Shown in pieces: positions 21,391 through 25,378 of a DNA stretch of 64,000 nucleotides (within the stretch, counting starts at the first letter, position 1; each line of letters begins with the position of its first letter). Origin of the DNA: Leeuwenhoekiella nanhaiensis (lineage in GTDB: Bacteria > Bacteroidota > Bacteroidia > Flavobacteriales > Flavobacteriaceae); the NCBI RefSeq assembly GCF_002744755.1, contig NZ_KZ319287.1, positions 744,001 through 808,000 on the forward strand, written 5' to 3'. Both the position numbers and the translations under genes were made by a program. The notes beneath the pieces are model-generated. The model was not told the origin of the DNA. It saw only the letters and a list, made by a program, of their open reading frames with translations, and did no database searches.

Positions 21391-22722
21391 ATGAGACTAG
21401 TAATACTGGGAGGTGGAGAAAGCGGAGTAGGAACCGCAATTTTAGGTAAAAAGCAGGGGTATGCGGTTTTTGTTTCCGATTTCGGAACGATCAAAACCAA
21501 ATACCGGGACGTTCTTAAAAATTATGAGATTGAATGGGAAGATGGCGGTCATACCGAAGCCAAAATCCTCAATGCAGACCTGGTGATGAAGAGTCCGGGA
21601 ATTCCTGATAAAGCACCGCTAATTCAGAAGTTGGTTGCAGCAGGAATACCAGTGATATCAGAGATTGAGTTTGCTTCCAGATATACCAATGCCACATTAA
21701 TAGGCATTACCGGAAGTAATGGTAAAACTACCACTACGCTGATGATGGCTCAGATTTTAAAACAGGCCAAATTTAAAAGTGTGGCGGCGGGCAACATTGG
21801 AGACAGCTTTGCACGATGGGTGGCCCTTGATGATCAGGATTATTACGCGTTGGAGATCAGTAGTTTTCAGCTGGATGGGATTGTAGGTTTTGCGCCGCAT
21901 ATCGCGATTTTGACCAACATCACTCCAGATCATTTGGACAGATATGAATATAAGTTTGAAAATTACATCCGCTCAAAATTCCGCATAGCAGAAAATCAAA
22001 CGGAGAACGATTACCTCATCTACGATGCAGATGACCCGGTAATCACAGATTGGCTGGAGCAACATCCGGTAAAGGCCAGGTTGATGCCTTTTTCAATTTC
22101 AACAACAGTAAAACAGGGAGCATTTTATGCTCAGGACGAAATAACAATTATAACTGACGATACAAGCATGACGATGTCAACAAAATCAATGGCGATTAAA
22201 GGCCAGCACAACACCAAAAACGCAATGGCAGCAGCTACTGCGGCAAAACTTTTAAGCATTCGCAAAGCGACCATCCGGGAGTCTTTAGAAGGATTTCAGG
22301 GTGCAGAACACCGTCTGGAGCACGTGCTTAAAATCAATCATGTATCGTATATCAACGATTCTAAAGCCACTAACGTCAATGCTACTTTTTATGCTTTAGA
22401 TAGTATGAGTGCCCCTACGGTATGGATTGTAGGAGGTGTTGATAAAGGCAACGATTACAAAGATTTGTTTCCGTTAGTTAATGAAAAAGTGAAGGCGATC
22501 ATTTGCCTTGGGAAGGATAACAGTAAGCTGTTGCAGGCATTTGGAAATATGGTTGAAACTATTGTGGAAACCCAGTTCATGTCTGAAGCAGTAAAAGTTG
22601 CCTATAAGCTAAGCGAAAAGGGAGATGCTGTATTGTTATCACCTGCATGTGCAAGTTTCGACCTTTTTGAAAACTACGAAGACCGCGGGCGTCAGTTTAA
22701 AGAAGCTGTGAGGAATTTGTAA
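21391..22722 (+). CDS. murD: UDP-N-acetylmuramoylalanine--D-glutamate ligase
   Basis: Adds D-Glu to the precursor; 443 residues. N-terminal Rossmann-like LVILGGGESGVGTA, ATP loop GITGSNGKTTTT (about 109-120), EISSFQLDGI, NITPDHLDRYEY, and C-terminal INDSKATN and LLSPACASFDLFENYEDRG. The ATG follows immediately after the heptamer repeats, so its ribosome-binding context is the repeat itself. Confidence 0.95.
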   Translation: MRLVILGGGESGVGTAILGKKQGYAVFVSDFGTIKTKYRDVLKNYEIEWEDGGHTEAKILNADLVMKSPGIPDKAPLIQKLVAAGIPVISEIEFASRYTNATLIGITGSNGKTTTTLMMAQILKQAKFKSVAAGNIGDSFARWVALDDQDYYALEISSFQLDGIVGFAPHIAILTNITPDHLDRYEYKFENYIRSKFRIAENQTENDYLIYDADDPVITDWLEQHPVKARLMPFSISTTVKQGAFYAQDEITIITDDTSMTMSTKSMAIKGQHNTKNAMAAATAAKLLSIRKATIRESLEGFQGAEHRLEHVLKINHVSYINDSKATNVNATFYALDSMSAPTVWIVGGVDKGNDYKDLFPLVNEKVKAIICLGKDNSKLLQAFGNMVETIVETQFMSEAVKVAYKLSEKGDAVLLSPACASFDLFENYEDRGRQFKEAVRNL

Positions 22723-22770
22723 AATACGAAAAGTAGAAAGTAAAAGGTGAGAAGTAAAAGGAATAAAACA

Positions 22771-22798
22771 ATTCAACTTTTTTTCACAGCTTAAGAAA
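22771..22798 (+). repeat. composite repeat element, conserved core, copy 1 (before ftsW)
   Basis: 28 bp beginning ATTCAAC, a T7 run, then CACAGCTTAAGAAA. Identical to 24223-24250. It is flanked in both places by related AAGTAAAAGG and AATAAAAC blocks upstream and CCGAAAA downstream, so the whole spacers are paralogous. Confidence 0.8.
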
Positions 22799-22800
22799 CC

Positions 22801-22856
22801 GAAAACCGAAAACCGAAAACCGAAAACCGAAAACCGAAAACCGAAAACCGAAAATT
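22801..22856 (+). repeat. tandem heptamer array (GAAAACC)7 plus one variant unit
   Basis: Seven perfect GAAAACC units (22801-22849), then GAAAATT (22850-22856), whose TT begins the ftsW start codon. A partial unit, GAAACC, precedes the array. Copy number changes would alter the spacing and leader of ftsW. Confidence 0.9.
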
Positions 22857-24057
22857 GAGCAGTACTAAAAACATATTTTCAACCTTAAAAGGAGACCGGG
22901 CGATCTGGGCGATAACCGCATTTTTGGCGTTGTTTTCCTTTTTGCCTGTGTTTAGTGCGAGCAGTAACCTGGCTTACCTCTACGGCAATGGCGATACGTT
23001 TCCGTTTTTAGTAAAGCATTTTATGCATTTGGTGTTGGGCTTTGCTATTATTTACGGGGTTCATAAGGTACCGGCGCATTACTTTAAGGGCCTGTCTATT
23101 ATCGGAATTCCTATCGTATTGCTTTTGTTGCTCATTACCTTAGTTCAGGGAACTACCATTGACGGAGCGAACGCCAGTCGCTGGATTAAAATACCTTTTG
23201 TTGGAATTACATTTCAGACTTCGACTTTGGCTTCGGTGGTGCTGATGATCTACATAGCGCGCTATCTGTCTCGCATAAAGGACAAAACCATCACATTTAA
23301 AGAAAGTATTTTGCCGCTTTGGGTACCTGTGGCTTTGGTAGTAGGGCTCATTTTACCGGCAAACTTTTCAACCGCGGCGATCATTTTTGCGATGGTGCTT
23401 ACGCTGGTTTTTATGGGTGGTTATCCTTTTAAATATCTAGGAATCATTGTTGCGGCGGGCTTGCTAACCCTCACACTTTTTATTCTTACTGCGAAAGCAT
23501 TCCCCGGGGTTTTTCCTAACCGGGTAGATACCTGGATGAGCCGGATTGAGAATTTTACCGGAGAAGAAGATGGTGAAGGCGATTACCAGATTGAAAGAGC
23601 AAAAATTGCGATTGCGACCGGGGGAATCACAGGTGTTGGGCCCGGTAAGAGCGTGCAGAAAAACTTTTTGCCTCAGTCTTCATCAGATTTTATTTACGCC
23701 ATTGTGGTGGAAGAATTTGGTTTGATTGGGGGTCTTACGCTCCTGCTGATGTACTTGCTGCTATTGTTCCGTATTCTGGTTGTGGCGAATAAGGCAACCA
23801 CGGTTTTTGGAAAGTTAACAGCCATCGGGGTTGGGTTGCCTATAGTGTTTCAGGCGCTGATCAATATGGCAGTGGCGGTAGAATTATTTCCGGTGACCGG
23901 GCAAACGCTCCCGCTCGTGAGTAGTGGAGGTACCTCGATTTGGATGACCTGTTTAGCGATTGGTGTGGTTTTAAGCGTAAGTGCAAAACGCGAAGAGGCA
24001 AAAATTAAGGAAGAAGAAGAAATGAATCCGCTTGATATTTTGAGTGAAGCGATTTAG
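22855..24057 (+). CDS. ftsW: SEDS-family peptidoglycan glycosyltransferase FtsW
   Basis: Septal glycan polymerase partner of FtsI. 400 residues and about ten membrane helices; SEDS features include ANASRWIKIPFVGITFQTS, RVDTWMSRIENF, GVGPGKSVQKNFLPQSSSDFI (split here only for reading), EEFGLIGG and the C-terminal LPLVSSGGTS. The only fitting start is TTG at 22855, which falls in the last unit of the heptamer array. The stop codon's last base starts the next array. Confidence 0.93.
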   Translation: MSSTKNIFSTLKGDRAIWAITAFLALFSFLPVFSASSNLAYLYGNGDTFPFLVKHFMHLVLGFAIIYGVHKVPAHYFKGLSIIGIPIVLLLLLITLVQGTTIDGANASRWIKIPFVGITFQTSTLASVVLMIYIARYLSRIKDKTITFKESILPLWVPVALVVGLILPANFSTAAIIFAMVLTLVFMGGYPFKYLGIIVAAGLLTLTLFILTAKAFPGVFPNRVDTWMSRIENFTGEEDGEGDYQIERAKIAIATGGITGVGPGKSVQKNFLPQSSSDFIYAIVVEEFGLIGGLTLLLMYLLLLFRILVVANKATTVFGKLTAIGVGLPIVFQALINMAVAVELFPVTGQTLPLVSSGGTSIWMTCLAIGVVLSVSAKREEAKIKEEEEMNPLDILSEAI

Positions 24058-24126
24058 AAATACGAAATACGAAATACGAAATACGAAATACGAAATACGA
24101 AATACGAAATACGAAATACGAAATAC
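24057..24126 (+). repeat. tandem heptamer array (GAAATAC)10
   Basis: Ten perfect copies of GAAATAC begin with the last base of the ftsW stop codon. Length 70 bp with no interruption. Perfect identity points to recent expansion and likely length variation between strains. Confidence 0.95.
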
Positions 24127-24222
24127 GTTTTTTAAAGAACCAAGAACACAGAAGTGAAAAGTAAAAGGTAAGTGGTGAAAAGTGAAAGAAATAAAACGAT
24201 TCAGCGATTCAAAAAATTCACG

Positions 24223-24250
24223 ATTCAACTTTTTTTCACAGCTTAAGAAA
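24223..24250 (+). repeat. composite repeat element, conserved core, copy 2 (before murG)
   Basis: Identical 28 bp to 22771-22798. In this copy the first heptamer type is expanded (ten units at 24057) and the second (ACCGAAA-type) is present about once, the reverse of copy 1. Confidence 0.8.
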
Positions 24251-24265
24251 ACCGAAAATAACGAA

Positions 24266-25378
24266 TTGAAGACTTATAAATTCATATTATCTGGCGGCGG
24301 AACCGGGGGGCATATTTACCCGGCGATTGCGATTGCAGATGCTTTAAAAGCAAAGTATCCGCAGGCGGAATTTCTTTTTGTGGGTTCGCAGGATCGTATG
24401 GAGATGCAAAAAGTGCCTCAGGCGGGTTATAAAATTGAAGGACTTTGGATTGCGGGAATTCAGCGGAAGCTTACCTGGTCAAATCTGATGTTTCCGTTTA
24501 AGCTAATCAGCAGCCTGTTTAAATCGGCACGCATCATTAAAAAATTTAAGCCCGATGTGGTGATAGGTACCGGCGGTTTTGCCAGTGGACCTTTACTGGA
24601 AATGGCGACCCGCTATCACGTGCCGGCCCTGATTCAGGAGCAGAATAGTTTTGCAGGGATTACAAATAAACTTTTGGCTAAAAAAGTGCAGAAAATCTGC
24701 GTGGCCTATGATGGGATGCAGCAATTTTTTCCGGAAGAAAAAATAGTAAAGACCGGTAATCCCGTGCGTCTCGATTTGCTAAAAACCGAAGAAAACCGCG
24801 AGGCAGGACTTACAAAATTCAATCTGGATCCCAATAAAAAAACCTTGCTTATTCTGGGTGGAAGTCTGGGTGCGAGAGCTATCAACAGATTAATTGATCG
24901 TGAATTGCAGTTTATTCTCGATCAGGGTTTACAGGTAATCTGGCAATGCGGACAGTTGTATTATGAGGAATATAAAGCTCATAACAATACAGAAAACGTA
25001 CAGGTGCTGGCGTTTATAGATACGATGAATCTGGCTTATGCCGCGGCAGATGTGATTATTAGTCGAGCCGGTGCAGGTTCGGTTTCTGAATTGGCGCTGG
25101 TAGGTAAGCCGGTGATTTTTATCCCGTCACCCAATGTGGCCGAAGATCATCAGACTAAAAATGCCGAAGCGGTAGTAGCTAAGAATGCGGCGATAATGTT
25201 GAAGGAAAGCGAACTCGAAACGCATTTTGAACCGGAGTTTAAAAAATTGATTGGTGACGAAATTCGCCAAAATGAATTGGGCGCAAATATTAAAAAGTTG
25301 GCTTTACCACAGGCGACACAACGTATTGTACGGGAAGTAGAAAGCCTGCTGAAACTGAGCAAACAAGATAAAGAATAA
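24266..25378 (+). CDS. murG: UDP-N-acetylglucosamine--N-acetylmuramyl-(pentapeptide) pyrophosphoryl-undecaprenol GlcNAc transferase
   Basis: Makes lipid II from lipid I at the inner face of the membrane. N-terminal loop [75 protein letters not shown] and [15 protein letters not shown] are all present. TTG at 24266 gives the standard [11 protein letters not shown] beginning. The frame is open upstream to 24182, but that stretch is translated repeat element and not conserved protein. The start context ACGAATTGAAG is shared with murC. Confidence 0.94.

Follow-up and report, generated by a model that had tools for sequence, protein, structure and literature searches.

The tandem heptamer arrays in front of ftsW and murG in Leeuwenhoekiella nanhaiensis are probably part of a family of small mobile elements, of which the two spacers would be members without the element's own gene, a gene of the family 23S_rRNA_IVP or "S23" (PF05635; hereafter IVP). 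The arrays lie in a window of 64,000 nucleotides (contig NZ_KZ319287.1, positions 744,001 to 808,000; coordinates below count from the first letter of the window, and all features named are on the forward strand). In the cases measured, the complete form is about 420–500 bp long and has an IVP gene flanked by inverted arms, each with about four imperfect units of 7 nt (sometimes 8 nt). Elements occur mostly between codirectional genes and, in one case, within 23S rRNA. Sequence comparisons show period-7 inverted arms at most loci, specific to each element and predicted to pair in RNA; they also show a single site that is empty, full, truncated, or IVP-less in different records, and a single element that recurs at several sites.

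A complete element is present in the window between mraY (19673–20902; Pfam Glycos_transf_4 and MraY_sig1) and murD, where its 488 bp (20903–21390) exactly fill the interval from the mraY stop to the murD start. The left arm (20903–20970), made of AAATACA/AAATACG-type heptamers with lag 7 as the best period, is followed by a four-helix-bundle gene of 126 aa (20971–21351) that matches PF05635 above the Pfam cut-off (E 1.1e-12), and then by a right arm (21352–21390) of inverted heptamers of the CGTATTT type with a lag-7 identity of 0.75. Its arm-arm match (score 34) ranked first among the 79 downstream flanks described below. A preliminary description of this DNA had regarded 20917–20973 as a decayed third copy of the ftsW and murG leaders; it is instead the left arm of this complete element. 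The IVP gene is the element's sole open reading frame (ORF) of at least 100 aa and no reverse transcriptase is present; no transposase was recognised in the element, no search aimed at a partner in trans having been made. We found no Rfam match at 19600–26800, and the element sits between mraY and murD, not in a 23S rRNA gene.

IVP genes go with period-7 inverted flanks at most loci, and we consider this association firm. The L. nanhaiensis genome (G000) contains nine IVP genes, eight of which, by eye, are flanked on both sides by inverted period-7 repeats whose unit is specific to the element; the exception (L073) has ATTATT-type repeats, also by eye. IVP matches were present in 12 of the 13 genomes of the genus at 59 places, and 56 of these loci were inspected. 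We compared the 110 nt upstream with the reverse complement of the 110 nt downstream at 79 of 86 loci (seven truncated loci were dropped by hand), counting a match as significant when it scored above 99% of letter shuffles; loci that share a site are not independent of one another. The inverted match was significant at 54 of the 79 loci (genus: 29/49; other groups: 25/30), and the controls gave 3.6% for mismatched pairs and 7/79 for the direct comparison. When counted per site, own arm matches exceeded those with other sites at all 16 genus sites. Lag 7 was the best period in 18 upstream and 25 downstream flanks of the 49 genus loci, and in 19 and 18 flanks, respectively, of the 30 loci from other groups; control flanks of other window genes gave 1/25 (upstream) and 4/26 (downstream). 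Lags 7, 14, and 21 were prominent in IVP flanks and not near the 25–26 other window genes, and some elements had a period of 8 instead of 7. The best arm-arm alignment had a median length of 27 nt, about four units, and predicted RNA pairing of the arms reached z < −2 at 36/79 loci versus 2/79 for mismatched arms.

IVP/S23 proteins were present in 113 of 149 genomes of the family, and from these positive genomes we drew, by score, a held-out set of one locus for each of 40 other genera, skipping entries with internal stops. Inverted matches were significant at 22/40 loci versus 7.1% of mismatched pairs (direct comparison: 2/40), and 28 upstream and 23 downstream flanks had lag 7 as the best period. 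Among 12 plasmid records picked by hand from 39, nine had inverted and two had direct matches, and at all 12 one flank or both had lag 7 or 8 as the best period. One cyanobacterial plasmid (L430) carried long direct (AAAGCTA/AAAGCCA) arrays in both IVP flanks, not inverted ones. IVP genes lay among CRISPR-associated genes on this plasmid and on two others from cyanobacteria (L431, L433), between cas6 and cas4 twice and between cas10 and cmr3 once.

That the elements are mobile is well supported by related genomes that differ at the same junction. In 11 of 12 relatives in the genus, the mraY stop and the murD start are 0–2 bp apart, at the place where G000 has the 488-bp element; sister genome G006 carries a 126-bp remnant there with heptamers and no IVP gene. 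G006 is nearer to G000 than G010 is by MraY, MurD, and MurC, and G010 is nearer by FtsW (98 vs. 96%); since these proteins disagree on the nearest relative, the order of events at this junction is uncertain. No clear target duplication was seen there. The hisH/hisA junction is more varied: the genes overlap in G002, G005, and G007 and are 8–9 bp apart in G009 and G012, one type of IVP is present in G000, G008, and (decayed) G004, and another type in G006 and G010. By eye only, G001 has a decayed IVP of the G006/G010 type, which gave no profile match; G011 has 96 bp of heptamer-like sequence and G003 a different stretch of 381 bp. The hisH/hisA IVPs of G000 and G006 share 27% amino acid identity, and right up to the junction their flanks are 94–95% identical. 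G010 and G007 have an element in common at another junction, with 97% identity between the IVPs and 72–76% between the flanks; in steps of 60 columns, identity was 90–100% inside the element and 72–90% outside.

Cyanobacterial plasmids provided a site (A) in several states. It is empty in Nostoc linckia NIES-25, whose flanks are 98% identical to those of Trichormus variabilis ATCC 29413 plasmid C, and the full element is present in the latter and in Scytonema NIES-4073; the copy in Nostoc C052 is truncated, and all that Brasilonema has is a heptamer hairpin. Five more records of site A appear to be empty, as judged by match length only. The sequence GTAAT occurs once in the empty site and at both ends of the full Trichormus copy; the Scytonema copy has a differing right flank and showed no overlap in the duplication check. 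At site C a target duplication of TTCTA was suggested, but another copy ends in these letters too. One element was met at three sites (Trichormus, Nostoc ATCC 53789 pNsp_a, and an Aulosira plasmid) with 74–78% identity over about 440 columns and unrelated flanks. Two plasmids of Nostoc sp. ATCC 53789 (L435, L436) have different IVP elements at neighbouring junctions of one gene row, and the L435 junction is free of an element in L436.

Most of the IVP genes examined had such arms; they came from the genome of L. nanhaiensis, 11 of its relatives, 40 more genera of the family, cyanobacteria, Chloroflexi, Verrucomicrobia, and Acidobacteria. A scan for four-unit stretches of TAACTGA gave at least 111; the 80 matches listed were mostly from cyanobacteria, and other hosts among them were Bacteroidota, Parabeggiatoa, Verrucomicrobia, Pyrinomonadaceae, Chloroflexi, and a Gracilibacter. 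IVP genes were carried by 15 of 16 hand-picked TAACTGA genomes, with 115 matches in total, and 14 well-known control genomes, which were not phylum-matched, had none (0/14). Among 30 of the 115 loci, fetched and inspected, arms included GGGAACA in Fischerella, GGCAACA and TAACTGA in Microcystis, and AATTGGT in Chloroflexi. TAACTGA units form one arm of the Microcystis IVP element L290, and in Anabaena (L292) they are mixed with CAACTGA in one IVP flank, with no inverted match. Only one element met (L283) lies inside a 23S rRNA gene, with heptamer arms of the CAGAAGT type. A single cyanobacterial IVP query found no IVP in phage records.

Orientation with respect to the neighbours was uniform within the genus, where all 56 IVP genes (about 16 sites) are codirectional with both neighbouring genes. 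The same was true of 37 of the 40 held-out loci, none of which ran against both neighbours; the 30 loci from other groups comprised 14 codirectional with both, four against both, and 12 mixed or unassigned. In 15 of the 40 held-out genera (L454–L493) the IVP element occupies one common junction with differing heptamers. The gene after this junction has a start that looks thiolase-like by its motif.

The ftsW and murG spacers themselves are of one architecture, as the preliminary description had proposed. The ftsW spacer consists of a left block (22723–22761; AATACG...AAGTAAAAGG), a core (22771–22798), and an AAACCGA array of 8.4 perfect units (22796–22854; Tandem Repeats Finder, 100% matches) that abuts the TTG start of ftsW. 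In the murG spacer, 10.1 perfect units of GAAATAC (24057–24127; 100% matches by the same program) are followed by about five AAGTGAA-type heptamers (24152–24187; 72% matches) and a second, identical copy of the core (24223–24250). The two spacers agree with that description, with the correction that the TTG start of murG is at 24266–24268. The 28-nt core is the longest string common to both spacers (300 letter shuffles gave at most 14), and 7 is the best period among lags 3–14 in both, with lag-7 identities of 0.64 and 0.59. The suggestion of an unnamed mobile leader element came close; the real unit appears to be larger, with an IVP gene between inverted heptamer arms. Self-copying of the leader was not borne out, slippage being sufficient for array growth.

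Matches to the arrays are dispersed in the genome of L. nanhaiensis, and the core is far rarer in it and its 12 relatives. The ftsW spacer matched 15 places in its own genome including itself (E ≤ 0.001), mostly through the ACCGAAA array, and the murG spacer matched 50 (E ≤ 0.01), many of them within a single long AAATACG array. This array (L151; C10, about 38580–39300) has 101 perfect units. At three or fewer mismatches the core has three copies in G000, three in sister G006, and none in the other 11 genomes; an exact 23-nt stretch of it is shared by the two spacers in G000 and in G006 and recurs at one further place only in each genome. Gapped matches of the murG spacer that cross the core were found on C9, C4, C2, C7, and C10 (72–87% identity), and in an ungapped scan only that on C9 (23/28) rose above control stretches (15–20/28).

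Among the 13 genomes the spacers are not ordinary conserved sequence. Seven have short array-free spacers at both ftsW and murG, and the other six hold differing repeats: ACCGAAA and AAATACG in G000 and G006, AAAGAAC and CAAGAAC in G010, AACAGTA and AAAACGG in G004, and non-heptamer types (AATAATAGCAATAA) in G009 and G012. In G008, ftsW was matched as two overlapping pieces (L090/L091), a frameshift or an assembly error. Exact heptamer arrays of at least three units numbered 0–1 per 200-kb sample in eight genus genomes, too rare to correlate with the number of IVP genes. Elsewhere in the window, a TAATAGCAATAAAAATAATAATAACAATAGC-type repeat between two ORFs (3447–3484) resembles by eye the arms of L073-type IVP elements and is possibly a gene-less arm.

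A relation between these spacers and the elements is suggested by two matches. Both arms of the mraY/murD element match the murG spacer above all 300 letter shuffles, and the right end of the G006 remnant, when reverse-complemented, is identical to the ftsW left block in 28 of 39 columns, a score reached by one in 300 shuffles. We think it likely that the ftsW and murG spacers are IVP-less composites of the element class that have become alike by local conversion and have grown by slippage.

Several observations weigh against this derivation or against the wider family. Neither arm of the mraY/murD element shows a match to the ftsW spacer (p about 0.11 and 0.34), and direct and inverted alignments of the G006 remnant with the murG spacer score about the same. 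A profile search of ftsW loci in the 13 genus genomes and in 29 of the 40 other family genomes found no IVP gene, and nothing like the core was seen in any IVP element inspected. Dispersal of the core, which we had entertained, was set aside, with seven of eight other places inspected reaching just 16–19/28 ungapped, the level of the controls. The weakness of the dispersed core and the lack of IVP genes at these spacers in the relatives searched lower our confidence in the element reading somewhat and raise it in slippage. The two spacers hold direct arrays, not inverted ones, and fold no better than shuffles (z 0.28 and 1.49). Outside the genus, Parabeggiatoa has TAACTGA arrays and no IVP match. 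Of the 80 listed TAACTGA loci, each covered over up to 8 kb, only one had an IVP gene by a profile that recovers all 30 of the IVPs used to test it; most arrays stand alone. A comparison of solo heptamers with IVP arms was mixed, two of 11 beating all permuted heptamers and two more nearly so. The arm match was not significant at 25/79 and 18/40 loci, and target duplication was clear at one of five plasmid sites (C, C2, D, and E being ambiguous or without one). Own arms matched better than same-site arms of other species in only 26 of 43 comparisons (p 0.10), so we do not claim compensatory evolution, in which both arms of a site would change together.

One alternative is that the arrays are ordinary heptanucleotide simple repeats, produced by slippage in A-rich leaders and by gene conversion between spacers, with the IVP element adjoining by coincidence. 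The perfect direct arrays with very unequal copy numbers, the 101-unit array elsewhere in the genome, and the other repeats that relatives carry at the same spacers favour it, and the separation of most arrays from IVP genes, the lack of IVP at the spacers in relatives, and the mixed solo-heptamer comparison speak on the same side. Against it, the inverted, element-specific heptamer arms that flank IVP genes and the IVP-less heptamer remnants at former element sites show that such leaders do come from elements, and element arms resemble the spacers. We regard an explanation by slippage without elements as rather unlikely. A local duplication that carried one leader over to the following gene, with no mobile element, would readily yield a 28-bp core identical in both spacers, and the confinement of the exact 23-nt core in G000 and G006 to these spacers and one further place each is in line with it; yet the spacers have matches elsewhere in the genome, some of which span the core, and spacers of relatives are empty, so that we think it improbable as a full account. 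Local duplication can still account for the close likeness of the two spacers.

A further alternative is that a post-transcriptional regulator binds the arrays before start codons, as MacGregor proposed for TAACTGA, and that they are kept for the control of ftsW and murG. The arrays directly precede TTG starts, and most TAACTGA repeats of one genome are likewise placed, according to PMC4679880; but seven of the 13 genus genomes are array-free at these spacers, the rest use other repeats, and the spacers do not fold. We consider a role in regulation very improbable as the reason for the arrays.

If the arrays derive from IVP elements, as we favour, a possible course of events can be outlined. 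The arms would pair in RNA and RNase III might cut the element from the transcript, by analogy with the Coxiella 23S rRNA intervening sequence (IVS); insertion would therefore be tolerated, as we propose. The IVP ring may bind the element's own heptamers; structures of two relatives, 2rld and 2gsc, have five chains each, and among the solved IVP relatives is XCC0516 of Xanthomonas. Loss of the IVP gene would leave heptamer-only spacers, which could then grow, shrink, and change through slippage and local gene conversion. The element would be moved either by IVP itself or by a host enzyme in trans. A bolder version, which we offer tentatively and hold to be possible but doubtful, is that the ring serves a new class of mobile element as its recognition protein, and perhaps as its sole protein: each IVP would read its own 7-nt unit, one per subunit, and would move a hairpin-ended element between transcribed junctions and 23S rRNA, the heptamer families of cyanobacteria, Beggiatoaceae, Xanthomonas, and Bacteroidota all being its footprints.

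Heptanucleotide repeats are so far without an accepted origin; the published TAACTGA, GGGNATC, and Coxiella IVS heptamers would accord with one in such elements. If they are the ends and footprints of IVP elements, the origin of the repeats and the function of IVP become a single question, several unexplained bacterial repeat families may be tied together, and the 23S rRNA intervening sequences gain a much larger home between protein genes. In the open-access literature, as far as it was covered, we found no paper that describes heptamer arms for IVP genes outside rRNA or that joins dispersed heptamers to IVP genes, which is not proof of absence; the words S23 and four-helix do not occur in the main texts of PMC4679880 and PMC4692102.

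The 23S rRNA intervening sequences of Coxiella and Leptospira are similar in having an ORF of the PF05635/S23p family and complementary inverted ends; the elements described here differ in that nearly all lie between protein genes, in many copies and with varied heptamers. PMC4990558 describes a Coxiella IVS of 428 nt with tandem GACAGAT heptamers before the S23p ORF, which RNase III cuts out, an older proposal that IVSs are mobile with the ORF as a mobility component, a function of IVP/S23 proteins that is not known, and an IVP-related protein of Xanthomonas that is a pentamer. In candidate phyla radiation bacteria, rRNA insertions also contain IVP ORFs (PMC11270868).

The perfect tandem 7-nt intergenic units of the ftsW and murG spacers are like the TAACTGA and GGGNATC repeats, which differ in being treated as simple repeats in print. 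Cyanobacterial STRR sequences are likewise intergenic tandem heptanucleotide repeats. According to PMC4679880, heptanucleotide repeats are the most abundant long simple-repeat class in most bacterial genomes surveyed, and MacGregor describes TAACTGA repeats before start codons as perhaps horizontally spread by a mechanism that is not evident. Rehm et al. (PMC4692102) report GGGNATC repeats (Xanthomonas, Nostoc) as generally not associated with mobile elements; in two genomes of Xanthomonas they count 70 and 75 inverted pairs that are convergent, and arrays most often have four units.

Inverted ends, empty sites, and gene-less derivatives at one site are shared with small transposons and miniature inverted-repeat transposable elements, which differ from IVP elements in that the latter end in period-7 arrays varying from element to element, have no recognised transposase, and show a clear target duplication at one site only. 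Finally, Avd of the diversity-generating retroelements is a pentameric four-helix bundle with a related fold; the element in our window differs from these retroelements in having neither a reverse transcriptase nor a second ORF of at least 100 aa.

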